Below, piece after piece: positions 3,701 to 51,452 of a DNA stretch of 64,000 nucleotides; the first letter of the stretch is position 1; the number at the start of each line of letters is the position of its first letter. Below the pieces are notes generated by a model. The model was not told where the DNA came from, made no database searches, and was given only the letters and a program-made list of their open reading frames with translations. A program made the position numbers and the translations under genes. The DNA is from Ischnura elegans (lineage: Eukaryota > Arthropoda > Insecta > Odonata > Coenagrionidae). The stretch lies in NCBI RefSeq assembly GCF_921293095.1, contig NC_060257.1, forward strand, positions 54,596,968 through 54,660,967, in the 5' to 3' direction.

Positions 3701-5018
3701 TAATCCTTGGAATGAGACGACGGAAATTCAAATACGGTCTTTTTTCAGCCACCAAGGTCGTGGCAGTGAATTTGCCTGCCTCAGAACGAGGTTCGAACGT
3801 ATTTCGAACTCCTCTCTAGAGTGCTGGCGCATTCGATATCCTAAGGAATTGTGCCTTCCTTTTACCCGCTATATCCCTCTATCCCTCCTTTCCGTTCCTT
3901 CTTCGCACCTACACTGGCACTCTCTAATAATAATAAAATAAAAATATTATTAATTCACTAGTCAACAAAAACTTTTTTTTCTATCGTAGTGATTTTGCTG
4001 GGTCATCATAGAGGTGCTCTTCGTCCTGATTCCAAATCTGGGCTCAGATGTTTTCTATCACGTCTAGTTTCTTTAGTACAACCGAATTAAATAAGAGTTC
4101 AAGGATATTTAAGCAAATAAATCGTGATTTTAAAAAATGTGAAAAAATGGCACATTCATAGGATTTTCTTGAATATTAAGCATCTGGTAGGTCCCTGTTA
4201 AGTGTCCATCAGTAATATGCTAAGATGTTGCTGAAATTTCCAAAGTACTATTTTTCCAAATGTAAAACATCTTGGTTGAAACGCTCACTGTGATCATCTC
4301 TAACAGCGCTGAGTTTTGGTGGAAAAAGGCAAGGTGTGAGTCGAGAAAATATATTTTTTTTAATCATATTGCAGCTCATTTTTTGGTAAAATTAATTATA
4401 TAAGCCACCAGATCATGATAATTTTCAGCCTTGATATTTCCTAAAGAATGTCCAGATACATTTCTGAATGCGTTCCACGCGCTTTTTTCCGTTGACCTCA
4501 ATTGCTGTTGAAATTCCTAATCCTTCAGCGCTTCCCTAATCTGTGGCCCAATACAAATTCCTTCTTTGATCTTTGCCTCATTTAATTGAAGGACTTTTTG
4601 TTCCAAATAAGAAAAATCAGCACTATTTTTCCATTGCTCTCACAAAATTGAAAAAGTCCTTATTTCATATGCAGAGGTGGAAAAAGAATATTTTTTGGAT
4701 CGACCAAAGGCCGACAAAGGACATTTTTGGATCCAGGAACGAGTTCATTATGTTCTGGACAATTTTTCTTTCAAGTAATAATTCTTTTCTGTCTCTTATA
4801 TCCCACTCGAAGATGAAGCAACAACATTTCGTAAAACCAAATTGTAAGCCTAATCAAATTGCAATTACTTTTAGGTGACCTCAAATTTTCCATTCATATT
4901 TTTGGTAGTTTTTTTTTTTCTAAAAGTAACTGCGCATTTTCGTAACATTCTTTCATTTCAGTTTAATGAGTTAATAGTATCAATGGAAGCTCATTGCCAT
5001 TATGTAAGAGATTAGTCT
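3701..5018. other. AT-rich intergenic DNA, no gene seen
   Basis: No supported coding sequence. An open frame of 101 codons at 4,573-4,878 has no recognisable motif and the composition of random AT-rich DNA. Confidence 0.55.
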
Positions 5019-16881: not shown

Positions 16882-19800
16882 ATGAATGCGACTACAGCGG
16901 TCATCGCTTTGGCTGTTATAGCCAGCGCTTCGAGTGAGTACCTAAACAGTCACGTTTATTTGTAGATAGATGCACAGACATTGAGAGCACCCATAACTCA
17001 CTCTTTACCGGTCGTGTTTTGTGTATTTTATGTGTATTTGAGCGACGGATTTCTCTCGTAACCCATTTCCGGCAAGAAAAATGTCTGCTTGCGATTTTGA
17101 AGATATTAATGAGCTCCGCTCCTATATTGTCGTCTTTAAGTTATCTTTCGAAAATATTTTAATGGCGCTCAGGGCTGGGCAGTATTCCAAATATAAGTAT
17201 TTTAAAATGCATATTTGAAATACATTTGTAATCCTTACTTGATATTTCATATACACGACTTGAATGCATCTTGCATTTTGACTTCATGTACAGATTTTTA
17301 GTATATTACAAAATTTAAAACACGAAGAAGAATTATATAAAACACGAAGTACTCCGACCATGAATAACGAAATGGTCGAAAGTTAAAACAAAACACTCAG
17401 TATAACGGCTAAAAAATAACTTTCGACTATTTCGTTATTTATGATAGGAGCACTTCGTGTTTTATATCATTCTTCTCAGCTTTTTTGGTACTTTAAAAAT
17501 ATGCTATTAAGATTGAGATATTATGAGAAAGTAAAAAAAGTTAATAATTCTATTAGAGGTGCTAGTTGCCTTCGTCGGGGAGAGGAAAGGGACAGGCGAA
17601 CGGACCCACCAACTACCTGTGTCGTTCCTGTACAGTTTTTTTGTCGGTCCTTTCCTACCCTCCTTTGCTCGCGGCTCTGGTACTTCGCGGACCTGTGCGC
17701 CAACTTACGGTGTAAACAGTATAAACTAATTTTAACACTTTTCATATTCGAAAAAATAATTTGTTAAAGAAAATTTGGTAAATTCATGATTTTTCTATAT
17801 TTTGTTTTCATTTATGAAGGAAAATAATTGTGCTTTTATATTTCGGGGGGGTGTCCGGACCCCGCGTATCCCCCCTGGCTACGCCACTGGGTGCAACACT
17901 ATGACAGGCAACAGTGCAACAACGATAGGTGACAAGGCTGCGACAGGTACTGCAGCTGAGTCAACCTGGCTGTGGAACAGGCAGGCTAGCCCTGCTTGTC
18001 AACATTACTCGTCTCAGTGGCGTAACTATGGGGGGGGGGGTCGTGAGGGAGTAGATCCCCCCCGAAAAGCCTCAGATAAATAACAAAATATATTTAAAGC
18101 TATCGTATAATTATTAGACATAACAACTGCATCTGCTTTAAGTTCAATCTTTAAAAGCCAAAGTGATATAAAATGTATTTCCAGGCATTTCTTTTTTCAA
18201 AACGTTTAACAGATTTTGCCCGTCGGGGAGGGGGTCGCCAACTCAGGCCATCTCATCCCCCCCAAGGCATACTCCTAGTAACCCCACTTATTCATCTCAT
18301 TCTTTTGTCAACATTATTCATCTTATTCTTTCCCAAGGCTTCCGAGTGCCCAATGGGCGACCGCTACTTGACGGGAGAATCATTGGTGGGGAGGATGCAG
18401 CCCCCGGAGAGTTCCCTTACCAGGTAAGGAATAAGATCAAGGGCACACCTAGGATCAAAACTTGGGTGGGTGGGTGGCAAACCATTGTTGTTCAAGTTAT
18501 AGGTAAGATTTAAGCATGGAAAAGGTGAATGAAATCAACATTTTGAGAAAAATGTAACGGCTCCTTATTAGTTTTTAAAATTATTTGGTTGAAAAAATAT
18601 TATTTTCCTTAAAAACATATGCAATTTTTGTTTCTAGATGGGGCAGCTGCCCCCTCCTGCCCCTCGCTGGGTACGCCCACGACTAAGATCATCAATATCA
18701 TCACTGGTCAACGATCCTTAGATTGGTTTTACGCAGCTCTACACTCAATTCTACTATTAGCTATGATCCGTTTAAAATATTTTTATGACCGGCATTGTCC
18801 TGCAATTTCGGAAGGTTTTGAGTTTTGGTTTAATTGCCTAGTTTTGTTTTTATGGCCAAAATTGAAAGCCATCCACAGAGCCAGTGGTACATCGAGGGAG
18901 GTTCCGACCCTGCCCTCCCCTCCCGCGGGAATATAAAAACACAATAACTTCTTGAGAACTAATTATATTTTAACAAAATATTTTATAAAATGAAGTTTTT
19001 TCCGATTGTAAAATGTGTTTAAATTAGTTTAAAACACACTACTTAGTTCCCTGATTTTCAAAAGTTTTCCCGCGAACTCCCCTGGTTCAACCCTGGTTTT
19101 AGATTCCCGCCCCGAAGAAAATTCCTGGCTGCGTCACTGTGTGGAGCCCTGTCTTTTATTTTATTTAATTTATTTAAATCTGCATGTTTAAACCATATTT
19201 TCTTCATGTATATGACCTCGTGTCCAATTTCTCCTATTCCATCTTTCAGCTCTCCTTGAGAATAGGCGTATATCACATCTGTGGTGCATCCATCTTGAGC
19301 GAGGACTGGGCCATGACTGCCGCACACTGCGTTCACGAGTGAGTATCAACGAGAAACAGAAACTCGTATCCAATGGCCGTGATGTAGGTATTACGTTATA
19401 GGTGCAAAAAAATACTGTGTTGGTTTGCTGGAACGGAAGAATTCGCAGCAGTGACCATGAGCGTATCCAGCGGGGGTCAGGAGGGGTCAGCTGCCCCCCA
19501 CACCCCCATTAAGAAAAAATTGCAAAAGTCTTTAAGGAAAATTAGGACTGGATGGAAATGAAAGTTTTCAACAATTTTTACATTTTCTTTAAACTCATGT
19601 ATTAGACATGTTACAAAAATAATTTTTTTTCCTGCAAATAATTTTCAAAACTAATAAAGTGTTGTTTTCTAAAAATTAAATAAAATTTTCTTAAAATGCT
19701 GGTCCCATTAACCTTTTCCATGCCAAAATATTACAACTTGAACGGCCATGGCTTACCCTCCCCTAGTTTTGATCCTGGGTACGCCCATTGACAATGACCA

Positions 19801-22800
19801 ACCCAAGCTTCTCAACCGGAAATCGCTGTCAAGCACTAATCTCACGTGAGATTGGTCAAAATGCGTATTTTCAGTGTAAAAACGTTAATATATGCTTCAT
19901 TTGAGTTGCGTTGCGATGCATTCATTGCGTTGGATTTATTTAAAAAAAATGACTGCTTTTGCTATTTTTATGTAAGATAAGTTAAGGCTAGTATTTAAGA
20001 TAGCTAAGATCATAGTCTATAATCACATTTTACACTGATTCTTGCGGAAAAAAATTACGTGACACTTGCCTCCTCTCCCCAACGTGAGATGGAGTGAGAG
20101 TCGGCTCAACCCCCTCGCCTAAACGACTCACGTAATTAATGGATGCCGCCTAAACCGTTGTGGAGTTGTGTTCAGCATTTCGCCCAATCTTTGTTATTCA
20201 CGCAGCGAATTTTTTTTGGCTCCAGCCATACGCAGAAAGATCAGTTCGTCACCATCACAATAGGGTAGTTTCCTATTATTTTTTTATTGCCTTAATCGAA
20301 AGATTATTACTCCTGGAGTACGTATTTCACGCTTTTAGATTTTTAAATGACAATATCTATTTTTCGCGATTAAATGAAAATTGAAAATTTTCAAGCGCGC
20401 GAAAACGCGACGCTCAAGTATGAATGCCGGGAAATATCTCCGTACCTCGTATTTCTGGTTCCCCCTCCCGCCCGGTGAGGTGACCTTGAGGCGAGCCTTA
20501 GCGCTGATACGTCGCAGACTGCCAGCAGGTAGCTGAGTTCCTTGTTGAATGGTAGCACTTGGCATGAAAAAGGTTTATTAATACCTTATCAAACGAAGAA
20601 AACTTTCCGACCTTAGCCAGTTTTAGTAGGTGATTATTAAGACATGTTTCCCTGGGCTCTGTGCCTCATGCATGCATTGGTAACCTCAGACGATATATAA
20701 CTCCTATCCTCTCGTGTAGAAACTAGGTCCCTATGACGTCACGTGGAGTGGAATCGCATGGGCGCCAATCTGGCCTTTTTCAAATGAGGATAAAATTTGA
20801 CCCTTGCCATTCGTCTAAACCGGTATTTCAAAAACCAAATAATTTGTGCATTGTGAATACACTAATAGTGGGTAAGGAATCGTAATCAATGCCTTTCGTT
20901 TTCTTTGATGAAGGAAACTACCCTATTGTTATGCATTGTTACATGTTGCAGGATAATTACACTTTCTGTGCAATTGCCTAGGTTTTTCAACATACGAACA
21001 AGGTCTCGGAATGTGTCTTGTTCGTATATTGAGAACTTTCTGTGCCTGCCTTCAGTACCCTTTTTCCTGACTGTTGGTGGCTGGACAGGAGAGAGCTAGT
21101 AACCAATAGCATATTCAATCCTTGCTCCTTTAGAGAAACATGCTCCATATATCAGTGGCGTAGTGATGGGTATTTTTGGGGATACCCCCCCCCCCAGAAC
21201 TCAGTGAAATTTTAAAATTTAATAGATTTTACTTAATTGGATATATTTTACCTATAGAATAGTGTAAGAATAAAATATTCCTCAGTAAGCCGTTAAACTC
21301 ACCATTTTGAGCTATTTATCTTAAATATTTCTGGGGGAGGGCACCCACTCCTCCCTTATTGCATATCCCCCAGTATTAGTGTCTCCTAAATCCCCCCTAG
21401 CCTTAATTCCTAGCTGCGCACCTGCTATATTCATCAGATGCTTTATATATGCTTTGTTTCCTTACTTCTACGCTTGTACTCTCAGGTGTAAGGAGATTCT
21501 TCTTTTTGTAGAAAGCCCTCTTCAACTGCACTATTCTACTGATGATTTATTTCTCTCTGATTCCTTTGTTGGTAACTCGGCTTCTTAGATCCAATGGATC
21601 CTTCCTGCTGGTGGATAATAAAATGGAGTATTGCTGTTCTCTTTATTTTTCACTCTTCATTACAATAGATCAAAATAATAGTGAACCACCCACGTTCTCC
21701 AAATAGCAATTTTTTCTTTGAACATGACAGCTACAGGATAACTATAGTGCTTGAATGGAATCCTTCATGCAATTGTGGCCAATTATTACCTTTCAGTGTG
21801 GGTCGCAATCGCCTGCAGCTCATGGCTGGTTCTCTTGACGTTGATGAGGGGGACATTTATCATGTAACTTATTTCACTGTTCACCCCAATTATGATCCAG
21901 TCACCTTAGACTGGGATATGGCAGTACTCAAGGTAATTTTTTGTTCTTCTATAGCTATATGGGTATGAGATAAAATATTAAAATATGTTACTAGAAGACC
22001 ACTAATTTTTGTTTATTTTTCTTTTTGTTAGTTGTATTTGAATATTTAATAACAGAGTTTTAGTATACATAGACGAATCCAGGGGGGGGGGGCATGTGCC
22101 CCCCTCCCTGACCCTTAAAAAATATGCAAGATTTTTAATACGGTCCCATTATCATTGCGTTCATTTTGTATTAAGAGGTATACTTGTGCCCCACCAGAAG
22201 AAAATCTTGGATACGGCCTTCCTTCCCCCCCCCCCCCAGAAGGAAATCATGGATCCGCCCCTGTTAGTACAAACTGCTATTTTTATACTTAAAACATATG
22301 CTGACGACTTTTTGTTAAATAATTTCCTGAATATTTATAAAACTTTAATCTTTAAGTATAAAGATTTTTAAAATTCAATTAATTTTGTAGTGAATATTTT
22401 GGATATTGCATTAATTTATATTTAATTATATTTTATTAATGTATATTTCAATGTATTAGGGTATTAGTTTATATTCGTTCAAGAGCGTTTCTGAGTTGAT
22501 TTGGTGGAAGTACAATATATATCCATGTTGAAGATCACAAATGATAATTACCACATTTTTAAATGCAACACTCAACAACCGACCATGGTTTCAACATCTA
22601 GCGCCATTTTCACTTTGAAATGACACAATGTGTTGAATCCATTGGAGGTTGTTGAGTTTTGGAGTTAAAAAGTGTGGAAATTACCATTTGTGTTCTTTCA
22701 CCATGAGTTAATTTATGTTGTTGTTATTTTGAATATTATATAAATAAATGAATACTTATTTCATTATATTAACACAAATTTTTTTCCATTTTCAGTTGCT

Positions 22801-25800
22801 CAAAAAATGTATATAATTTTTTCTCAAGGGGTACAGTCTCAGAGCCATTAATAAATCTCATTTCATTTCATACTACAGGTCTCAAAACCTTTTGTCTTCA
22901 GTTGTACAGTGTCTCCTATTGCATTGCCTGCAGAAGGAGAGGAGCTGGATGCTGGGACAATGGTGGTGATAAGTGGATGGGGTGACTTATTGGTATGTGC
23001 ACAAGTGCAGTCTGGTCACGTTTGCTGGAGGCTGATCACTTAGGCCCCCCTCAATACTCCCATCTTTCATGAAGCCTATATAAAAAAGTTTAATAAAAAA
23101 CACTCAAAATGCTTGAACTGAAAGTTTTCTTTTTGCTATTATAAAATTCAACATTTGTATCGGTTGGTTTATTTATAACATACTCAGTGTAAAAATATCA
23201 TATAAAAAATAAATAAAATGAAGGTGGTTGAAGAATCAATGGCGTAGCTAGGGGGGGGTCCGGACCCACCTCCAAAATACAGAAACACAATTATTTTCCC
23301 TCATAAATAAAACAAAATATTGAAAAATCATTAATTTACAAAATATTTCTTTAACAAATAAAGTTTTTTGGATAGTGAAAAATATTAAAATTAGTTTAAA
23401 ACCCATTATTAGTGCACTATTTTCCAAAACTTTTCCCCTCTCACCTGAACGAAATCCCTGGCTACGCCTCTGAGAAGAATAAAGGTAATCGTGATGCTAT
23501 TTTGAAATGGTTATTCGTATAGATTATTTTTGAGGTTTTCTTAGATTTCAGTGCAGTTTCAGGGAACAAATTCCCTAATATAATAATCGAACCATAATTC
23601 ATTGTTAAACTTTATAAGCTGTTAAGTTCTCACGTTTGAAAATATTTTTTCTTACAAAATTGCTATTTTTTATTGACATTTTATTTAGTTTTTATGACTC
23701 AGAATAGCATCAAAAATTCTCCACTCCCCACTCACCCCAGACCACCCCTGAATCTGAATATTTCTGAGTTTCAGTGTACAGTGCTCTGAGAAAGCCATAT
23801 CCATATGTACTTCTGAGTTCCTATCCTCTGTAGGTACCCCTAATTATAATAACTATTTCTGTTCCATGGCAAACCACCATAAAAAATTAAATAAGTTTTC
23901 ATTATTAGTTTAAAATTTGATTAAAAAATTACAATATATTTTTCAAGCATTAGTATTTTCAATGGTTTTTCACAATTTGAACCCATGAATGCCAAATTTC
24001 AATTGGTATTTTTAGCAAACAAATATTTGAACAAAGTCAAGATTTTCAAACTTTAGATAAAGGTAAATTTTCATGTGGGTCAATACCATTACAATTTTGA
24101 AGATGATAACTTATGTTTTTAACAATTCTTCAATGTTGGTTTATACATGCTCTCTTAAAATAATGATGAACAATTCCATTTCCTCAGGATATAGGCTCTA
24201 ACGGTAGATTCCTTCAGAAGGTTACAGTCCCTGTATACGACCGAAATGAGTGTTTTCTGGATTACATAATGTACGGTGGGATTACAAATCAAATGTTCTG
24301 TGCTGGAGTGAAGGAAGGAGGCAAGGATTCTTGTCAGGTAAATTGCATTTACATACTTTATATCTTCTATTGTAATAAATGATATAGTTATTTTGTGGGC
24401 GTGGGCATGGGCGTAAGCCTTAATAACATATCAATACCTCCACTGCACATTATCTCAGCAATCGCCTACCGAATCAATTCCGCTCATCTAGGAGCCCAAT
24501 TATAATACCGTAGCAGAGAATTGGAGGTGAGCGTTTATGCTCCGGCTACTGCCACCTGAGAGCATCCGTATTGTTGGGCCCCTAGATGAGCGGATTTGTT
24601 TCAGTTGTCGATCATTGAGCATTTTTGCAGCGAAGGAATTGATATTACAAATAAAATGCATTGCACCATCATCCAATGTACGAAAATAGATATCATTAAA
24701 ACCCTGTGCTGAAATGACAAGTCTAACTCATCGTTAAATTCTGTTACCAAATTGTGCATTTCATACTAATGCCTCATGGTGAATGCAAACATAGGTAAAA
24801 ATGTATTTATTAATTACATAATTTATATATTGATTTTATGCACCCACCCTGAGAAAAAAGTTGTGTTTTCCTTGAGCATGGCTCTTGGTGGGGGTTTACT
24901 GAATAAAAAATTGTATGGAAGTTTCAGACTTTTAATCTATTTTTGTAGTCATACATATTATTATCAGTATATGCACAATAGTATTTTAATGCTTTTGTCA
25001 AATAAGGGTGCTGTTGTAGAGGCCATACATACATCTTAAATTCAGAATTTATATTTCTCTTAATTTTCTCTTTGACAAATGAAGTTTTTCATGGTCATTA
25101 TTATCCTTACCATAATAATCTAATTAGATTGGTTTGGTCCAATTAATTACCATTCACCCTTTCTGATTTGAACTTGAAAAATTGTATGAAAATGTCAGCT
25201 TTGAAGCTTTTGGAAGCACTTAAACATGTAGGCACTAAGATATTTACTAAATACAATAAATCTTACTTATATCATAGTTTGGGGGACCATCATTCCTTTT
25301 TGTTATAAACGGGATTTTGTTAAATGCATAATGAAGGATTTTGCCGTACGCATCACAGTATTGCCGGCTAACATTCCATAAATCGTCTTTAGTGTAGCAA
25401 TAGATTCGTAATGATGAACTATCATCCCACCCTTTCCATTAAACAGCAGTAAAGGGAAGAATTTTAAGATCTACAGTAGAACTATGAGGTGATAGCCACA
25501 TGTGATAACTACCGGTGATAAGGTAAGGAACGGTTAAGTATCAAAGATGGCCTTAATGTCTTTTTAAAAGAGGAAATAATTCCTTGAGGGACCAAAGAAT
25601 AGTTCGTAATTGCAGGGATTTTTTATCATCAGAACTCAACACATGCAGTGAAATTAACATAGGCTATCGTAGCAAAGTCTAAAAGACCAGAAACTACCCT
25701 CAGTATAGGCGGGATATCTTAACATGCGTGATCCTTATAAGCACGTTTCGCTGTACATATTTATAATTATTGTACACAGCGGAATCGTACTCTCAAGAAG

Positions 25801-26668: not shown

Positions 26669-27439
26669 CCAACTACTTTCCGTTTCTTTCCCGAAGGTTT
26701 TTTTGTTAGAGGCTTTCTATTGGACTATGGAGAATTAATTACTACTCTGCCAACCCATTCCTATTTCAAGAAGAATATATTTTAGATAAAATGTGTGCAT
26801 TCAAAAAAGAGGTGAATTAGATGTACGAGCATGGCAGTATGAATTTAATATAATTCAAGCTTTATTATGTTTGAAAGGCTCCTTGCAAAGCTATGAAGCC
26901 ATGAAAGCATTTTAGAAACCAGATAATAATTAGATTTTCCATCTATATTTACATGAAAATACTGACCAAACATATTTTAGATACATACATATACTTCCAG
27001 TATCCACCAAATACAAACCAGTATTATTTTTCAAGAGAATTGAAATCCAATAAATAAAAGCCAAAATTAACTATCCTTTTTGCAATAAATTTGGGGCCAA
27101 CATGAACTGCACCATGAATCAAAATCATGGTATGAAGCAACACATAGGATACCTCTATTGGACTCAATGTTATGAGCAAAAACATTTGTAGTACCTATCA
27201 ATCGAAATGGTGATGGCTCAAATGAGAAGGTGCGTTGGAGTAGGAAGGGGTGAAGGATCTCTAGAACATAGGTATTGGCTGACACAATCAGTTCCAAGGC
27301 AGTTTAGGATTAAGTTACAAGGGGGATGAGGATCAATTACATCCATTCTGGTGGGTTACAGAGGCTTTAGTTTCCCAGAGATTTCTTCATAAATATGATT
27401 CTTCTCCACAAAAAAATATTGTGTCAGACAAAACTAAAC
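26669..27439. other. intergenic, no gene seen
   Basis: AT-rich unique sequence. A 76-codon frame on the minus strand has no recognisable features. Confidence 0.5.
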
Positions 27440-27940
27440 CCAGTGAGAAATGGGTGGTGGAATCCACGTGGAACCCACGTGGAGAATTAACGTGGATACC
27501 ACGTGATTTTGGTCGTGGAATCAACGTGGAACCCACGTGGAAATTTGGTGGAAAAATTAAAACAGCAGTTGGTGCTGTCCTAAAACCATTAAAACCTCAA
27601 CCACTCTAGTATATCTAAACCTTCTATACATGTGTCTACGATTTTTCATGTGCTCTCATGGCTGCCTTTCCACGAATTATATAAAAATAGAATGTGCGAT
27701 ACATTTTCACATAACTAGCGTGGTTTCAGGATGATAAATGACGCAATGTCACCAGAGAGTTAAGTTCCACAAATTAGAAATTCTGTTTAACATTTTATGC
27801 TAATCACCACAAATCCACTTGAAATCAACGTGGATTCCACGTGGGTCCAACCACTCAATATCCACCACCACCAAATATCCACCACTCAACGTGGATTCCA
27901 CGTGGGTTCCACGTGGATTCCACCACCCATTTCTCACTGG
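27440..27940. mobile_element. foldback element with seven CACGTG boxes, copy 1
   Basis: The ends are perfect 32-bp inverted repeats beginning CCAGTGAGAAATGGGTGGTG. The 501-bp element carries seven CACGTG hexamers in its terminal regions, in arrays of CAACGTGGATTCCACGTGGG type. Flanking AAAC on each side may be a 4-bp target duplication. No coding capacity; short frames arise from the arrays. Confidence 0.8.
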
Positions 27941-28457
27941 AAACCCTCTGAGCCATTCACAGAAGCCTAATTTAAGCAGGAAATTGCCAGGCTATTTCAC
28001 ACAGAAATGCTGACGTTTATAAAAATGTCAAAACCATTAACATTCCTCATTATATACTGACTATTAATCTGAGTGCAGAAAAATTCTCTTCTTTAGTACA
28101 TATTAAATAAACTATTTAAAAAATCATATCAGTGAAATAATTTTATGAACAAAGAAAATTTACATGCCAAGGAAAGGTGAATGTGGGCACTTTTAGGGTT
28201 AATGAGCAGTGAACATGAGGTTCAATTACATATTGTTAGGTACATGTATTACTTTATATTCAAAATTAAGTCATGCATATGTTAATTCTTTTGCAATTTT
28301 CTCAAAGTGATGGCAGCCTATGTGCCAATATAACTACATAGTTAGTTTTCATAAAGTTAATGAAGAAATAGCATTATGGACTTATATGTCACTGAAAGAG
28401 TTTCAGTTTCTGTTTTTAGGGTTTGCATGTGGTAGTAAAGTCTGAAAAAGGAATTCC
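27941..28457. other. unique AT-rich spacer between the two CACGTG elements
   Basis: No feature seen. It is not shared with the DNA flanking the second element, so the pair arose by separate insertions rather than by tandem duplication of a larger segment. Confidence 0.5.
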
Positions 28458-28955
28458 CCAGTGAGAAATGGGTGGTGGAATCCACGTGGAACCCACGTGG
28501 AGAATTAACGTGGATACCACGTGTTTTTGGTCGTGGAATCAACGTGGAACCCACGTGGAAATTTGGTGGAAAAATTAAAACAGCAGTAGGTGCTGTCCTT
28601 AAACCATTAAAACCTCAACCACTTTATATCTAAACCTTCTATATATGTGTCTACGATTTTTCATGTGCTCTCATGGCTGCCTTTCCACGAATTATATAAA
28701 AATAGAATGTGCGATACATTTTCACATAACTAGCGTGGTTTCAGGATGATAAATGACACAATGTCACCAGAGAGTTAAGTTCCACAAATTAGAAATTCTG
28801 TTTAACATTTTATGATAATCACCACAAATCCACTTGAAATCAACGTGGATTCCACGTGGGTCCAACCACTCAATATCCACCACCACCAAATATCCACCAC
28901 TCAACGTGGATTCCACGTGGGTTCCACGTGGATTCCACCACCCATTTCTCACTGG
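28458..28955. mobile_element. foldback element with seven CACGTG boxes, copy 2
   Basis: Nearly identical to 27,440-27,940 in the same orientation, with the same inverted ends and seven CACGTG hexamers. I could not define its target duplication. High similarity implies recent activity. Confidence 0.8.
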
Positions 28956-29519
28956 GTCAATTGTACAAAAATGCCAATTATGCCAACAAGCACTGGAAAG
29001 TTGAGCAAAAACCACAAAATGCAAAATGTATCTTGAAAATTTGCATTGTCAACCACGATAGTTCGTAAAAATTTGTTCACAGTGAAAATAAATATTATGA
29101 AAAAATAAATAATCAGTCTCACAAATTTTAGTACAAGTAGTTGGAGTAGTGGGACCGATACAACCGATAAAAATGTTGAATTTTATAAAAGCATAAAGAA
29201 TACCTTCAGTTCAAGTAATCTGAGTGTTTTTTTACTAAACTTTTTTATATATGCTTCATGAAAGATGGGAGTGTACCGATATGTAACCCCATCCACTTAT
29301 CACCACCATTGTCCCAGCATCCAGCTCCTCTCCTTCTGCAGGCAATGCAATAGGAGACACTGTACTACTGAAGACAAAAGGTGTTGAGACCTGTAATATG
29401 AAATGAAATGAGTTTTATTAATGGCTCTGAGACTGTAAAGTTTTAAAATATATTCAGGAAATTATTTTAAAAAATTCGTCAGCATACGTTTTAAAGTAAA
29501 AAATAGCAGTTTGTACTAA

Positions 29520-30189: not shown

Positions 30190-30720
30190 TGGAAGGATCC
30201 ATTGGATCTAAGAAGCCGAGTTACCAACAAAGGAAGCAGAAAGATATAAATCATCAGTAGAATAGTGCAGGCAAAGAGGGCTTTCTACAAAAAGAAGAAT
30301 CTCCTTACACCTGAGAGTACAAGCGTAGAAGTAAGGAAACAATTCATCAGATCCTATATATAGCAGGTGCGGAGATAGGAATTAAGGCTAGGGGGGATTT
30401 AGGAGAAACTAATACTGGGTATATGCAATAAGGGAGGTGTGGGTGCCCTCCCCCAGAAATTTTTAAGATAAATAGCTCAAAATGGTGATTTTAATGGCTT
30501 TCTGAGCAATATTTTATTCTTAAACTATTCTATAAATAAAATTTATCCAATTAAGTAAAATGTATTAAATGTTAAAATTTCACTGAGTTCTGGGGGGGGG
30601 GCTTATCCCCAAAAATACCCATCAATGCGCCACTGATATATGGAGCATGTTTCTCTAAAGGAGCAAGGATTGAATATGCTATTGGCTACTAGCTCTCTCC
30701 TGTCCAGCCGTCAAAGGTCA
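30190..30720 (+). pseudogene. LINE reverse transcriptase fragment in intron 3 of copy B, split by a hAT-type element
   Basis: The pieces 30,190-30,363 and 30,636-about 30,700 together follow the LINE fragment at 8,300-8,360 (GTAAGGAAACAATTCATCAG, then TATGGAGCATGTTTCTC). The interruption is the element at 30,364-30,635. Confidence 0.6.
30364..30635 (+). mobile_element. hAT-type G-tract miniature element, intron 3 of copy B
   Basis: A 272-bp element from CAGGTGCGGAGATAGG to TGCGCCACTG. Flanks ATATATAG and ATATATGG form an 8-bp duplication with one change. It is nested in a LINE fragment. Confidence 0.8.
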
Positions 30721-32395
30721 GGAAAAAGGGTATATATGGCAGGTACAGCAAGTTCTCAATATACGAACAAGACGCATTCCGAGACCTTGTTCGTATGTTG
30801 AAAAACCAAGGCATTTGCACGCAAAGTGTAGTTATCCTGCAACATGCAACACTGCATAACAATTGTGATGGTGACGAACTGATCTTTCTGCGCGTGGCTG
30901 GAGCCGAAAAAATTTTGCTGCGAAAATAACGAAGATTGGGCGAAACGCTGAACAGTTCCCGACTTCACAACGGTTTAGGCGGCATTCATTAATTACGTGA
31001 GTCGTTTAGGGGATGGTGTTCAGCCGATTCTCACTCCGTCTCATGTTGGGGAGAGGGGGCAAGTGTCACATAACTTTTTTCCGCAAGAATCAGTGTAAAA
31101 TGTGATTATAGACTATGATCTTAGTTATCTTAAATACTAGCCTTAACTTATCTTACATAAAAATAGCAAAAGCAGTCGTTTTTTTAAATAAATCCAACGC
31201 AATGAATGCATCGCAACGCAACTCAAATGAAGCATATATTAACGTTTTTACACTGAAAATACGCATTTTGACCAATCTCACGTGAGATTAGTGCTTGACA
31301 GCGATTTCCGGTTGAGAAGCTTGGGTTGGTCATTGTCAATGGGCGTACCCAGGATCAAAACTAGGGGAGGGTAAGCCATGGCCGTTCAAGTTGTAATATT
31401 TTGGCATGGGAAAGGTGAATGGAACCAGCATTTTAAGAAAATTTTATTTAATTTTTAGAAAACAGCACTTTATTATAGTTTTAAAAATTATTTGCTGGAA
31501 AAAAAATTCTTTTTGTAACATGTCTTATACTAATATCATTTTACATGAGTTAAAGAAAATATAAAAATTGTTGAAAACTTTCATTTCAATCCAGTCCTAA
31601 TTTTCCTAAAGACTTTTAGGATTTTTTCTTATTGGGGGGGAGGGGCAGCTGCCCACTACTGACCCCCGCTGGGTACGCCCATGGTCCCAGCTGCGAATTC
31701 TTCCGTTCCAGCAAACCAACACATTAATTTTTTGCACCTGTGACGTAATACCTACGTCACGGCCATTGGATACGAGTTTCTGTTTCTCGTTGATACTCAC
31801 TTGTGAACGCAGTGTGCGGCAGTCACGGCCCAGTCTTCGCTCAAGATGGATGCACCACAGATGTGATGTCCGCCTATTCTCAAGGAGAGCTGAAAGATGG
31901 AACAGGAGAAATTGGACACGAGGTCAAATACAAGAAGAAAATAAAGTTTAAACATGCAGATTTAATTATAAATTAAAAATAATTTACGGCAGGGCTCCCG
32001 CAGTGACGCAGCCAGGAATTTTCTTCGGGGCGGGAATCTTAAACCGGGGTTGAATCAGGGGAGTTCGCGGGAAAACTTTTGAAAATCAGGGAACTAAGTA
32101 GAGTGTTTAAAACTAATTTAAACACTTTTTACAATCAGAAAAAACTTCATTTTATAAAATATTTTGCTAATATATAATAAGTTCTCAAGAAGTTTTTGTG
32201 TTTTTATATTTCCGGGGGGGGGGGGGGGGGGGGGGGAAGGGTCGGAACCCCCCTCGATGTGCCACTGGCTCTGTGGATGGTTTCCACTTTTGGCCATAAA
32301 ACCAAAAATAGGCCATAAAACCAAAACTCAAATCCTTCCGAAATTGCACGACAATGCAGGTTATAACAATATTTTAAACGGATCATAGCTAATAG

Positions 32396-32463
32396 TAGAA
32401 TTGAGTGTAGAGCTGCGTAAAATCAATCTTAGGATCGTTCATCAGTGATGATAATTATGATCC
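32396..32463 (+). repeat. LINE 3' tail fragment in intron 2 of copy B
   Basis: Matches the LINE 3' end at 8,720-8,765 (GAGCTGCGTAAAATCAATCT and a GATGATAA tail). Inverted homologue of 18,688-18,760. Confidence 0.55.
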
Positions 32464-33660
32464 TAGTCGTGGGCGTACCCAGCGAGGGGCAGGAGGGGGC
32501 AGCTGCCCCCCCTAGAAGCAAAAATTGCATATGTTTTTAAGGAAAATAATATTTTTTCAACCAAATAATTTAAAAAGATTATAAGGAGCTGTTACAGTTT
32601 TCTTAAAATGTTGATTTCATTCACCTTTTCCATGATTAAATCTTACCTAAAACTTGAACAACCATGGTTTGCCATCCCCCCCCTAAGTTTTGATCCTACG
32701 TGTGCCCTTGATCTTATTCCGTACCTGGTAAGGGAACTCTCCGGGGGCTGCATCCTCCCCACCAACGATTCTCTCGTCAAGTGGCTGTCGCCCATTGAGC
32801 ACTCGGAAGCCTTGGTAAAGAATAAGACAAATAATGTTGATAAAAGGGTGAGATGAGTAAGTGGGGTTACTTGGAATATGCCTTGGGGGGGATGGGATGG
32901 CCTGAGTTGGCGACCCCCTCCCCGACGGGCAAAATCTGGTAAAAGTTTAAAAAATGACATGCCTGGAAATACATTTTACATTACTTTGGCTTTTAAAGAT
33001 TGAACTTAAAGCAGATGCAGTTGTTATGTGTAAATTAGACAATAGCTTTAAATTTTTTTGTTATTTATCTGAGGATTTGGGGGGGATCTATTCCTTCACC
33101 CCCCCATAGTTACGCCATTGAGACGAATAATGTTGACAAGCAGGGCCAGCCTGCCTTTTCCACAGCCAGGTTGACTCTGCTGCGGTACCCGTCGCAGCCT
33201 TGTCGCCTATCGTTGTTGCACTGTTGCCTGCCATAGTGTTGCACCCAGTGGCGTAGCCAGGGGGGATACGCGGGGTCCGGACACCCCCCCGAAATATAAA
33301 AGCACAATTATTTTCCTTCATAAAAGAAAACGAAATATAGAAAAATCATGAGTTTGCCAAATATTTCTTTAACAAATTATTTTTTCGAATATGAAAAGTG
33401 TTAAAATTAGTTTATACTGTGTACACCGTAAGTTGGCGCATGGGTACGCGAAATACCAGAGCCGCGAGCAAAGGAGGGTAGGAAAGGACTGACAAAAAAA
33501 CTGTACAAGAACGACACAGGTAGTTGGCGGGTCCGTTCGCCCGTCCCTTTCCTCCCCCTGAAGAAGGCAACTAGCACCTCTAATAGAATTATTAACTTTT
33601 TTTACTTTCTCATAATATCTCAATCTTAATAGCATATTTTTAAAGTACCAAAAAAGCTGA

Positions 33661-33810
33661 GAAGAATGATATAAAACACGAAGTGCTCCGATCATAATTA
33701 ACGAAATGGTCGAAAGTTATTTTTTAGCCGTTATACTGAGTGTTTTGTTGTAACTTTCGACCATTTCGTTATTTATGGTCGGAGTACTTCGTGTTTTATA
33801 TAATTCTTCT
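33661..33810. mobile_element. foldback miniature element in intron 1 of copy B
   Basis: Inverted ortholog of 17,327-17,476, with arms containing AACGAAATGGTCGAAAGTTA and its complement. Confidence 0.8.
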
Positions 33811-38358: not shown

Positions 38359-38814
38359 CTTCTATCGTATTGGTTATAATTAATTGAAAACAATACAAGT
38401 AGGGCATCCATACCTTAAGATAGCACTGGGGCATCTCTCCCGAGGAGAGGTGGGGCGTCTCTCCTTTCAGTACGGGAGAGTTGCCCTTACAGCCAGCGGG
38501 CCAACACATGGTCTAAGACGACTTGTCACTGCTTTTGGGCATTTGATAAACATGCTTCTACAAGTTTTCACCCGTTAATTCAAAGTATTCAAACATTTTA
38601 ACTGATGCCGACCAGAACCATTATGCTCTACCTTATAACAGAGCGGAAAATTCGGAGTGTCACTTGAAATGACGTTCTAAAGTAGCGTAAAAAAAACGAA
38701 TCACCGCGAAACTTTTGAGGCTTGATATTAGTTGTCAAACTAATTGACGGACCCCACCAGCAGAGCAATCTGATCGTTTGTTTTTAAACTACCACGATCG
38801 GGGCATCTCTCCCG

Positions 38815-41748
38815 GTGGGGCATCTCACCCGGACTTCCCTTAATAGTGTTTCACCTGAAGATGATTCAGATAAATCCACATTAATGCACATTACCCCCGC
38901 CCCCAAAACGTGTTCTGTGCTGCTTGCTTCGGTGCTCGTTAAAGTAATTGGACCACATGGTCACTCAGTACTTGCTCGAGGACTTGTGGATCAGTGTGCT
39001 CAGTCATCTTTCATCTCTGAGTCATTGTGCCAACGGCTACGGCTGAAGGGAAGGAACACTAATGTGGAGATACTGGGACTAGTGGGAAATAAACAAGCGA
39101 GTTGCAAAAAATCCGTGTCATTCAAAATCAAGCCGCATTTCCATTCCCCATTTGCTTGTGACGTAGACGCTTTTGTTGTCTCAAAAGTATCCTCATATAT
39201 TCCAGAGAATAAGATTGTTTTCTCTAACTGGAAACATATTCAAGGGTTGACGCTTGCCGATCCACAGCAATATGAAGAAAGGGGGATTGAACTTCTACTT
39301 AGCGCTGCCATCCATGCAAAGATTGTGAAGGACCAGGTGAAGAAAGGAGGTTCAGGTGAGCCTATAGCTACGTGCACCGCTTTGGGATGGATGCTGTCGG
39401 GAGACGTCCAAATCCAGCAGGTTGAACCGTCAGAGCCTTCAACGGTTCTTCATTGCCTGGAGACTGAGGACCTTACTGACCTTCTAAGGAAATTCTGGGA
39501 ACAAGAGGATTTTCAACCTTCAAGAAAAATACTCACTCCGGAGGAGCAAGAGTGTGAAGACTTTTTCATGTCTAATTATAATAGAGATTTTTCAGGTCAC
39601 TTCATCGTTCGACTGCCACTGAAGGATGATGAGACGGCCGAAAAGCTACAAATTGGTAATTCTTACTCTACTGCCAAGAGGATGCTCGATCGGATGGAGA
39701 GGAGATTCGTCAAAGATGACCACTTGCAAGAGAAATATAAGGCCTTCATGCGTGAGTACATTAACCTGAAACACATGAAAGTCTCAAATCCTGAAAGAGA
39801 TCTTGATGGTTTCTATCTTCCTCACCATGCTGTTTGGAAAGAGTCCAGTGCGACAACTAAGTTAAGAGTTGTGTTTAATGGTTCGCAAAAAACCGATAAA
39901 GGGATATCTCTCAACGATAAGTTGCATATTGGTTCTAACTTATTACCTGATTTAGCTGATGTGGTATTACGTTGGCGAACTTATCGCTTTGCTTTTACTG
40001 CGGACATTGAGAAGATGTTTCGCCAAGTCTTAGTTGATGAGCGTGACCAACATTTACAGAAAGTACTGTGGAGATTTGACAAAAATGAACCTGTGCTTTC
40101 ATACAAATTACAAACTGTGACTTATGGCTTGGCATGTTCACCTTATCTAGCAAATCGATGTGTTAGAGAACTAGGCCAGAGTGAAGGTGCCCATTACCCT
40201 CTTGCTGCCCCTGTGCTACTTGATGAGATCTACATGGACGACGTGCTGACAGGAGAGCACACCCTGGAGAACGCGCGCCGCAAGCAGGAGGAGCTCATCA
40301 ACATGCTGATGGTGGGCGGCTTTCCTCTGCGCAAATGGGCTGCAAACGACCAAGAGCTGCTGGAATGGTTGCCACAGGAGGTAGTTGCTGCTGATCCTGG
40401 TGATCTTCCACAGCCGGAATCCAGGATGGCTGTCCTGGGCCTATCCTGGGTCCCCCAAGAAGATAACATTTTCTTCCGGATAAGTATCGATCCAGTTTTG
40501 ACTAAACCGATAACCAAACGCAATGTTCTTTCCAATATTTCTAAATTGTTTGATCCACTTGGTTGGTTATCACCGGTTATTATTACTGCTAAAATATTAA
40601 TGCAATCTTTGTGGCTTCTGAGAACTGATTGGGATTCTGAACTTACTGATGAAACTGCAAGGGTGTGGGAGAATTGGTATTTGTCACTTCCAGTTCTGTC
40701 CAATTTAATACTGCCCAGATGGATTCGGTTTTCTCTAAGTGCAATATTTTCCGAAATCCATGCATTTGCCGATGCTTCGCAAAGAGCTGTTGTTTATCTT
40801 AGAGTAATTTCTGATGTGGGTTCCACTTCAATGCTGGTTTTGTCTAAGAGCAAAGTAGCTCCTATTAAAACTATCAGCATACCAAGGCTGGAACTGTGCG
40901 CCGCCGTATTGGCTGCTCGGCTTGCAAAACATTGCCAACATGTCCTCAATTTGACTGATTCAAAAGTACACCTTTGGTCTGATTCCATTGATGTTCTGTT
41001 CTGGTTGACAGATCATCCCTCTCGATGGCAAACATTTGTGGCTAATCGCTGTGCAGAAATTCTAAATTTACTTCCTAATGGTACATGGCATCATATCCGT
41101 TCCGCAGGTAATCCTGCAGACGCTGTTTCCAGAGGTTTAACTCCTTCTGAGTTGATGAAGTCTCAGCTTTGGTGGCATGGCCCCCCAAATTTAACTTCCT
41201 CCAGTGCACCATGGCCAACATCAAAGCCAATACAAGTGGTAATAGAGCCAAAAGAGGCAAGAAAAATAACACACATTGCTTCCGTATCGCTCCTTCCAAT
41301 TTGGGATTTGTTGTATAGGTTTTCTTCCCTATCAAAACTCCTGAGAATTACGGCACTCTGCTTGAGATTTTTAAAACTTAAATTTGCAACTTGGGTGGCG
41401 TCGGGAAAAATTCTTGAATCTTTAAAAAACTTTCCATCGTCTTATTCCTCGCATCCTAGCGTCGAAGAAACTGACTTCGCATGTTTTCTATGGGTCCATG
41501 AAGTCCAAAGAACTTCCTTTTTTAAAGAAATCTCTTTAATCAAATCAGGACTTCAAATTTCTCATCAAAGTTCTCTACATAAACTTAACCCCATTCTTAC
41601 AAGTAATTGTCTTCGTGTTGGTGGGCGTTTAAAACATTCTATCCTGAGTGAAGACGAGAAGCATCCTCTAATTTTACCACATTCTTCTCGCCTAACTACT
41701 CTTATAATAGAACATTTCCACAAAATTACTCTTCATGGAGGAACTTAA
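38815..41748 (+). pseudogene. pol: Pol of the BEL/Pao element: aspartic protease, reverse transcriptase, RNase H
   Basis: 977 codons; the first nine are from the inserted transposon. Residues about 30-190 are the BEL/Pao aspartic protease (DUF1758/A17 type), with LVDQCAQSSFIS at 57-68; the usual Asp-x-Gly is here Asp-Gln-Cys, so the active-site Gly is lost. The reverse transcriptase has FTADIEKMFRQV and YMDD at 473-476. RNase H-like segments are FADAS near 650, RLELCAAVLAARLAKH, LWSDSIDVLFWL and RSAGNPADAVSRG. The C terminus enters the integrase zinc-binding region and stops at HGGT. That stop (41,746-41,748) is followed by 18 more open codons in the same frame before the next Met, so it is a point nonsense change. 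Confidence 0.93.
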
Positions 41749-49482: not shown

Positions 49483-49985
49483 TTCACAGAATTTCGCAAA
49501 TTTCCACCCGTGAACTGGGGGCCATTGTCGGTAACAATCTGCTCCGGGAGTCCAAAGACAGAAAATACATTTCTTAGGTGAGAAATGATCTCCTCTCCTG
49601 AACTAGTCCTTAACTCCTGTACCTCTGGCCATTTTGTTTGGCTATCAATTAAAACCATAAACATCTTCCCCACAAAGGGTCCTGCCAGATCTAAATGTAG
49701 TTTTTGCCATGGTTTCTCTGGCCAGTCCCTACTCTTTAATGGTACCCTGTTTGGTGTTGGCTTATTTGATAAGCAGGCCTCACAAGACTTTACCATCTTT
49801 TCAATGTCCTGATCCAACTTTGGCCACCACACATATGACCTTGCCAATGATTTTGATTTTGCCATTTCCAAGTTCCCTGAATGCAACTCTGACAATATTT
49901 TCAGTTTTAACCCTTCTGGCACTATGACTCTATTTCCCCACATCAAACAACCTTGTCCCACTGTCAAACTCATATCGCCTATCAA
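49479..49985 (-). pseudogene. gypsy integrase, N-terminal part
   Basis: 168 codons. Zinc-binding region: His35, Cys68 and Cys71; the second His of the HHCC set appears replaced (LHSGNLEM). Catalytic Asp99 (LDLAGPF) and Asp153 (VTDNGPQF). The frame leaves the conserved path just after Asp153 and stops, overlapping the next part. Confidence 0.9.
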
Positions 49986-51159
49986 AATATGGCTTCAACT
50001 CCTCACCCACCTTCCTTGGCCAGCCAAACAAGCAAAAATCAATTACCTTACTTACACGTTTATCCACCCGAGAAGCTTTGCTAATTACCTTTGAGGTAAC
50101 AGGAAGAAATTCACTTTCTCCTAACTGCAAATAGGAAAGTTCCTCTGTAATATTTGACTCCTGCTCCACGGGTAACCTAGATAATCCATCTGCAACTACA
50201 TTCTGCTCTGCTTCGATATACTGTATTTCATAATCATAGGCTTGCAATATTACTGCCCAGCGCTGTAACCTGTCGGCAGCCATTTTTTGTATCCCTCTAT
50301 TTTCCCCAAAAATGTGGAGCAGCGGTTTATGGTCTGTTTTCAAAACAAAGTGACGACCGTATAAATACTGATGGACCTTTTTCACCCCAAAAATTATGGC
50401 CAAAGCCTCTCTATCTATTTGGAAATAATTCCTTTCTGCGCTACTCAGTGACCTAGATGCAAAGGCAACTGGCCTTTCCTCTCCATTGGTGTATTTATGG
50501 AGCAGCACCGAACCTAGGCCAAATGGTGAAGCATCACATTCTAATATCACATCTACAGTTGGATCATAATGTGCCAATACCCTATGTGATGTGATTAACC
50601 TCTTAATTTTCATAAAGGCTGCATCACAGTCTGCTGACCAAAACCATGCGACATCCTTCTTAAGAAGTTCATGCAAAGGAAACAGCACAGAAGCTAGGCC
50701 CGGTAAGAACTTGGAGTAATATTCTACAAGACCCAAGAAAGATCTTAGCTGGGGGACATCTTTCGGAGCTGGTGAATTTACAATGGCTTCCACATTATCC
50801 TTCATTGCATGAAACCTACTTTTATCAGTCCTATGACCCAAAAATTCCACTGACTCGCAACCAATTTTACACTTTTGCTTATTTACTCGAAATCCAAATT
50901 TTTGTAACCTTTCTAGCAATGCATACAAATTTTTACCGTGTTCCTCCTCATTACAGCCTGTAACAATTACATCATCCTGAAAACAGGCCACCCCTGAAAG
51001 GCCTTGAACCACCTGATCCATTATCTTTTGAAAAATGGCTGGGGCAGATGCAACACCAAATGGTAACCTAACGTATCTAAAAAGGCCCCTATGGGTATTA
51101 ATTGTGCACATACGCTGTGAATCTTCAGCTAAAACCAGCTGTTGAAAAGCCTGGGACAA
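49930..51159 (-). pseudogene. gypsy reverse transcriptase (later part) and RNase H
   Basis: 409 codons. It has RLPFGVASAPAIFQ, FQDD at 60-63 (the YxDD active site), FLGLVEYYSKFLP (thumb), LECDASPFGLGSVLL with the first RNase H Asp, and LKTDHKPLLHIF. The N-terminal part of the reverse transcriptase is upstream (51,160-51,450), with an in-frame TAG near 51,191 and more stops. The end overlaps the integrase frame. Confidence 0.92.
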
Positions 51160-51452
51160 GTCAATTGTTGAAAATGCCTGACCACCTTGCTACTTTAGAA
51201 AGACCTCTTCCACTCTAGGTAGGGGGTACCTTTCAATATTTAAATTTGGGTTTAAAGTTATTTTAAAATCCCCGCAAATCCTTATCTTCCCTGTGCTTTT
51301 CATTACTGGCACAATCGGTGTTGCCCAATCGCTAAAATCTACTGGATACTAAATACCCAGCTCCAGCAATCTGTCAAGCTCCTCATTTACTTTATTTCTA
51401 AGGGCAAATGCTAAGGCTCTGGGAGCACAAAACACCGGTGTTGCATTTGCTT

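Follow-up and report, generated by a model that had tools for sequence, protein, structure and literature searches.

The window, by which I mean the whole 64-kb stretch of Ischnura elegans DNA that was analysed, holds two near-identical foldback elements (Table 1), each with seven copies of the hexamer CACGTG. The initial annotation had described them as such, and the description is confirmed by a direct read of their borders, by the positions of the boxes (27465, 27476, 27500, 27534, 27838, 27899 and 27910 in copy 1; 28483, 28494, 28518, 28552, 28853, 28914 and 28925 in copy 2) and by their ends, which are perfect inverted repeats of 44-46 nt in both copies. In both copies all but one of the seven boxes are contained in the unit CCACGTGG, and two of those six lie within TCCACGTGGA; in copy 1, the two units are counted six times and twice, respectively. 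A repeat family, D1, accounts for 20 overlapping 27-nt matches across both copies, direct as well as inverted and at both ends. CACGTG occurs 27 times in the whole window, compared to a mean of 5.5 (sd 2.4, maximum 12) in 100 shuffles. Outside both elements the hexamer is still enriched, with 13 more sites where 5.5 are expected for the entire window.

Table 1. Coordinates of the two elements, their parts and their target site duplications in the window
Feature	Position	Strand	Remarks
Copy 1, 503 bp	27439..27941	+	CCCAGTGAGAAA...TTTCTCACTGGA; final base differs from GGG
Copy 1, left target site duplication (AA)	27437..27438	.
Copy 1, right target site duplication (AA)	27942..27943	.
Copy 1, left terminal inverted repeat	27440..27483	+	I3, 44 nt, 100% complementary; two CACGTG
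Copy 1, left subterminal array	27484..27550	+	two more CACGTG and degenerate ACGTGG units; family D1
Copy 1, internal part without subterminal units	27551..27813	+
Copy 1, subterminal array and terminal inverted repeat on the right	27814..27941	+
Copy 2, 500 bp	28457..28956	+	CCCAGTGAGAAA...TTTCTCACTGGG
Copy 2, left target site duplication (TC)	28455..28456	.
Copy 2, right target site duplication (TC)	28957..28958	.
Copy 2, left terminal inverted repeat	28457..28501	+	I2, 45 nt, 100% complementary
Copy 2, subterminal array and terminal inverted repeat on the right	28829..28956	+

The two elements lie in the same orientation with 515 bp between them, and align at 98% and 99% identity in ungapped blocks of 170 and 300 nt, all of which would suit a local duplication. 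However, their target site duplications (AA versus TC) and their flanks differ, so copies 1 and 2 are two separate insertions, and a local duplication is extremely improbable. Elsewhere in the window, one of four frames from the protease region (24170-24382) matches Trypsin in Pfam. Frames and repeats of this protease neighbourhood at 17420-21417 recur inverted at 30379-33716 (e.g. 17420-17767 on the plus strand versus 33369-33716 on the minus strand), and an inverted duplication apparently surrounds the two copies. A Pao/Bel retrotransposon (Peptidase_A17) and a further element, with reverse transcriptase and RNase H domains, have open frames at 38788-41748 and 49930-51189.

In the 1.72-Gb genome (110 contigs), the 31-bp end of this family, here called fam1, is found 767 times in forward and 765 times in reverse orientation with at most three mismatches, while the reversed pattern, taken as a control, is not found at all. 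The possibility that these two copies are the only ones, which the initial annotation had raised against its own proposal, is thereby refuted. I analysed a sample of 52 distinct copies, composed of the best-matching loci and the first listed ends on contig C1, without copies that were repeated in duplicate or mirror loci or had less than 40 bp of flank; the 20 copies from C1 within this sample were picked by their end sequence only. An exact 2-bp target duplication is present in 44 of the 52 copies, where random pairing would give 5.25. Flanks agree over 3 bp in 2/52 and over 4 bp in 0/52 copies, and a 7-bp agreement is seen in a single copy, which sits in a simple repeat. The 44 duplications represent 15 different dinucleotides, with TA observed in six and AT in two of them. 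Paralogous empty sites, situated in dispersed repeats and with a gapless joint, were found for five insertions (L010, L023, L028, L053 and L063) with 69 joined-flank queries, duplicates included and L053/L054 counted once. The matches of L009 (neighbouring fam1 copies), L020 (80% identity) and L040 (joint within a run of G) were discarded. Internally, the copies diverge from the majority sequence by a median of 0.8% in the sample of 52 and 1.2% in the 20 copies from C1. Many ends, low divergence, 2-bp duplications and empty sites therefore define fam1 as a young DNA transposon. It is a non-autonomous cut-and-paste family of the MITE or foldback-like kind, in which no transposase-length reading frame was seen, and CACGTG arrays are indeed spread by a mobile family, as had been proposed. 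A search of a phage collection gave no match, and three sequence strings of the element did not occur in the literature searched.

The copies in the sample measure 500 bp (n = 27), 503 bp (n = 9) or 489 bp (n = 7), with single copies of 442, 456, 467, 473, 478, 501, 504, 515 and 589 bp, and the length classes of 500, 489, 478, 467 and 456 bp are spaced by 11 bp.

A sister family, fam2, shares the first 15 bp, CCCAGTGAGAAATGG, with fam1 and then continues with ATCATCGAAT. Its ends are found 138 times in forward and 137 times in reverse orientation (at most two mismatches, control 0), and for the first 100 places listed, the distance within neighbouring end pairs is mostly about 1.1-1.3 kb. The one complete copy that was read (L066 8056-9288) contains no CACGTG, ACGTCGA/TCGACGT 15 times and TCGACGTCGA four times. 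Its palindromes are of the GACGTC type, with CGACGTCG standing where fam1 has CCACGTGG; the units of both families have the ACGT core in common, while the flanking position differs on both sides in such a way that the palindrome is preserved. The flanks of two fam2 copies were read, and show no duplication in L066 and a 3-bp match, AGA, in L067.

The genome yields 26 matches to Transposase_21, and both transposase frames that were tested match this domain and hold the C(2)C and H(3)H motifs, described as common to CMC-type transposases in PMC12730594. Fifteen of the 26 matches lie on four small contigs (C13, C14, C16 and C17) that constitute about 3.6% of the genome. Family A has an open frame of 882 aa, and its ends, located genome-wide, are CCCTTACAGAAAATTAATACTGG and a variant thereof. 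They enclose 7.6 and 7.8 kb in two copies and are spaced otherwise elsewhere, and the 346 bp beside the right end hold five occurrences of the 17-mer CAGTATTTTTAATACTG, counted together with its complement. Three of the six A end pairs read show a TA duplication, and the other three show none. In family J, ends CCCTGGTGAAAATGGCCACAG at a distance of 8.5 kb enclose the transposase, TGGCCA occurs eight times in the 1.7 kb read, and a TA duplication is seen in one of three end pairs, the one with mirror-image flanks, with none in the other two. The J ends at L098 (C17:8046441-8046511) and L099 (C17:8055283-8055353) are, together with their flanks, mirror images, which suggests a palindrome in the genome or in the assembly. 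Downstream reads of 11 of the 26 matches revealed the ends of D, H, J and H2, whereas G showed a palindrome array but no end, and nothing recognisable was seen in six cases; the ends of D, H and H2 start with CCC and were read on one side only, with H and H2 alike. The family B locus, L069, has no recognisable end. Element N (1.78 kb) has CCC ends too and is nested in a fam2 copy at L067:561-2338, where its TA duplication (1/1) and empty site are exact, as confirmed by an uninterrupted fam2 copy. Overall, the coding elements begin with CCC and carry subterminal repeat arrays of motifs other than that of fam1. Such CCC ends may be a little-described variant among Transposase_21 elements.

The boxes themselves are well preserved. 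Seven CACGTG are present in 29 of the 52 fam1 copies, six in 13, five in five, four in four and eight in one, and any single box is intact in 40-51 of the 52 copies (9-20 of the 20 copies from C1). Perfect boxes at hundreds of sites could be seen as a mobile enhancer, as if they were retained because host bHLH factors such as Clock/Cycle or Myc/Max would bind them. Substitutions are indeed slightly fewer in box columns than in the remaining arm columns, though not significantly, in the 52 copies (10/1,599 versus 59/7,722 cells, p = 0.63) as well as in the 20 copies from C1 (5/595 versus 42/2,931 cells, p = 0.33). Gaps, however, are more common in box columns than elsewhere in the arms (65/1,664 versus 130/7,852 cells, p = 6e-8), and units are gained and lost in 11-bp steps. 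The boxes are therefore not decayed by substitution, the outcome that the initial annotation had considered for other copies, and show no significant extra protection, but are lost together with the units of the array. Moreover, the fam2 copy has no CACGTG at all, and the coding elements of the same genome hold other repeats at the equivalent place. Hence, the mobile spread of the arrays stands, whereas the claim that the boxes exist as bHLH E-boxes is not supported, and I consider retention by host factors distinctly unlikely. Host bHLH proteins might still bind the fam1 arrays as a side effect. A search with a spaced CACGTG pattern was uninformative, with 56 matches versus 69 in the control.

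The best explanation, to which I assign a probability of about 0.68, is that fam1 is a non-autonomous family moved in trans by a CCC-ended CACTA/EnSpm-type (CMC) transposase of this genome, with the palindromes acting as subterminal binding repeats of an element-encoded protein. Mobility, 2-bp duplication, copy number, youth and the different palindrome in the sister family were observed directly. The assignment to this type of transposase, and the role of the palindromes as sites of the transposase or a helper, are the most likely interpretation by analogy. The layout is like that of CACTA elements, with a conserved end and, at either terminus, direct and inverted repeats that are specific to the family, and the CACGTG palindromes are therefore read as putative subterminal binding repeats. 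A CMC transposase acting in trans would mobilise fam1. Insertion makes a 2-bp staggered cut, as the duplications and empty sites show. Palindromic units near both ends, with CCACGTGG as their core, would be bound by a protein that probably acts as a dimer, either the transposase or a TNPA-like helper, and CACGTG would be the core of the subterminal unit of fam1 itself.

In favour of the CMC assignment, the CCC ends and the end-plus-subterminal-array layout agree with the Transposase_21 elements found here. Compared with the five ends known from A, D, H, H2 and J, the first 15 bases of fam1 score 9.70, while the best of 20,000 shuffles of these same bases reaches 9.41, and the end of family J, CCCTGGTGAAAATGG, shares 10 of 15 positions with fam1. 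The margin is narrow even with CCC, and the likeness beyond CCC is modest, as 319 of the 20,000 shuffles reach the score of fam1 once CCC is left out, with H and H2, being alike, not independent of each other. Also against this assignment, fam1 has no preference for TA (6/44), whereas the 2-bp duplications of the coding-type elements, where seen, are TA (A, J and N), and a 2-bp duplication is missing from three of six A pairs and from two of three J pairs. The flanks of the two fam2 copies, with no duplication and a 3-bp match, and the fact that the ends are not CACTA also count against it. No autonomous element bearing the CCCAGTGAGAAATGG end turned up among the first 100 places listed per search, and no Transposase_21 frame was found between fam1 ends, though the genome has such transposases. 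The missing partner, the lack of TA preference and the modest end likeness could indicate that fam1 belongs to another, possibly undescribed superfamily with 2-bp duplications, and that the likeness of its CCC ends to CMC elements is due to convergence. I regard this as unlikely, given the shared end pattern and layout.

The hunt for a coding partner gave some further observations. Ends with the same 15 bp but another continuation are few (13 and 5). A 48-mer of the long arm has 56 exact-match places, six of which, on C13, C14 and C16, were read over approximately 620 bp towards the interior; five of them ended as short copies, and L101 ran into a repeat. Two fam1 left ends, in L101 and in L050/L065, continue into copies of one repeat, roughly 360 bp long and 83% alike, that lie in opposite orientation. 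The 3.0-kb fam2 copy L067 was rejected as a coding copy, as it is a fam2 element with N nested in it.

The rows of CACGTG near the ends of fam1 most likely serve the transposition machinery of the element, rather than host clock or Myc-type regulators. By a rough estimate, fam1 supplies some 4,400-4,900 CACGTG sites (767 ends at 5.75-6.35 boxes per copy). The biology of transposition alone can yield dense clusters that resemble transcription factor motifs, which calls for caution when enhancers are predicted from motifs. A pair of families that share their ends but differ in their palindromes would furthermore provide a natural experiment on how a transposon binding protein and its sites change together, for which PMC2613891 gives a precedent in plant CACTA elements. 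More tentatively, and with considerable doubt, a lineage of CCC...GGG CMC-type transposons might swap its palindromic subterminal site between sister families by paired changes (CCACGTGG versus CGACGTCG, with a shared ACGT) while keeping its end constant. The site of fam1 would then coincide with a host E-box, and hundreds of young insertions would hence present the bHLH factors of the host with dense clusters of CACGTG.

With respect to known systems, hAT, P and Galileo elements have duplications of 5-8 bp, and were rejected for fam1 on its flank agreement over 3 and 4 bp. Galileo, a Foldback-like member of the P superfamily, has a longer duplication and much longer arms than fam1. Tc1/mariner duplicates TA and piggyBac/Kolobok TTAA, and both were rejected given the variety of dinucleotides among the duplications of fam1. 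A search for YqaJ (ISL2EU) was uninformative, since all 150 scored candidates (of 309) match.

ISL2EU, of the PHIS superfamily, has a 2-bp duplication as well, but according to PMC4482050 this duplication is AT and the ends are usually GG. ISL2EU was excluded because of this AT duplication, which is seen in only 2/44 cases, and fam1 ends in CCC, not GG. The fungal Plavaka and ESTA elements have CMC-related transposases, and PlavakaA and ESTA share the 2-bp duplication with fam1, whereas the termini of Plavaka are TGT..ACA or CATCA..TGATG and the duplications of ESTA are TA (PMC12730594). CACTA/EnSpm elements (CMC; Spm/En, Tgmt*) resemble fam1 in their short duplication, conserved ends and element-specific direct and inverted subterminal repeats, and they too have non-autonomous derivatives that are moved in trans (PMC2613891). 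The same source describes that their subterminal repeats diverge widely between elements while the ends stay conserved, and that the TNPA helper recognises these repeats, which act in cis for excision. In contrast to CACTA...TAGTG, the ends of fam1 are CCCAGTG...CACTGGG, and no coding content was seen in fam1. Its 2-bp duplication differs from the exactly 3 bp of classical plant CACTA elements (PMC4158355 and PMC2613891), but fits the range of the CMC clade, given as 2-5 bp with mostly CA..TG ends in PMC12730594 and as 2-4 bp in PMC4482050. Within the same genome, families A and J with their Transposase_21 differ from fam1 in being coding, about 7.6-8.5 kb long in their fullest copies, with a TA duplication where seen and another repeat motif, but share with it the CCC ends, AAA near positions 10-12, the subterminal arrays and, in some end pairs, the 2-bp duplication.
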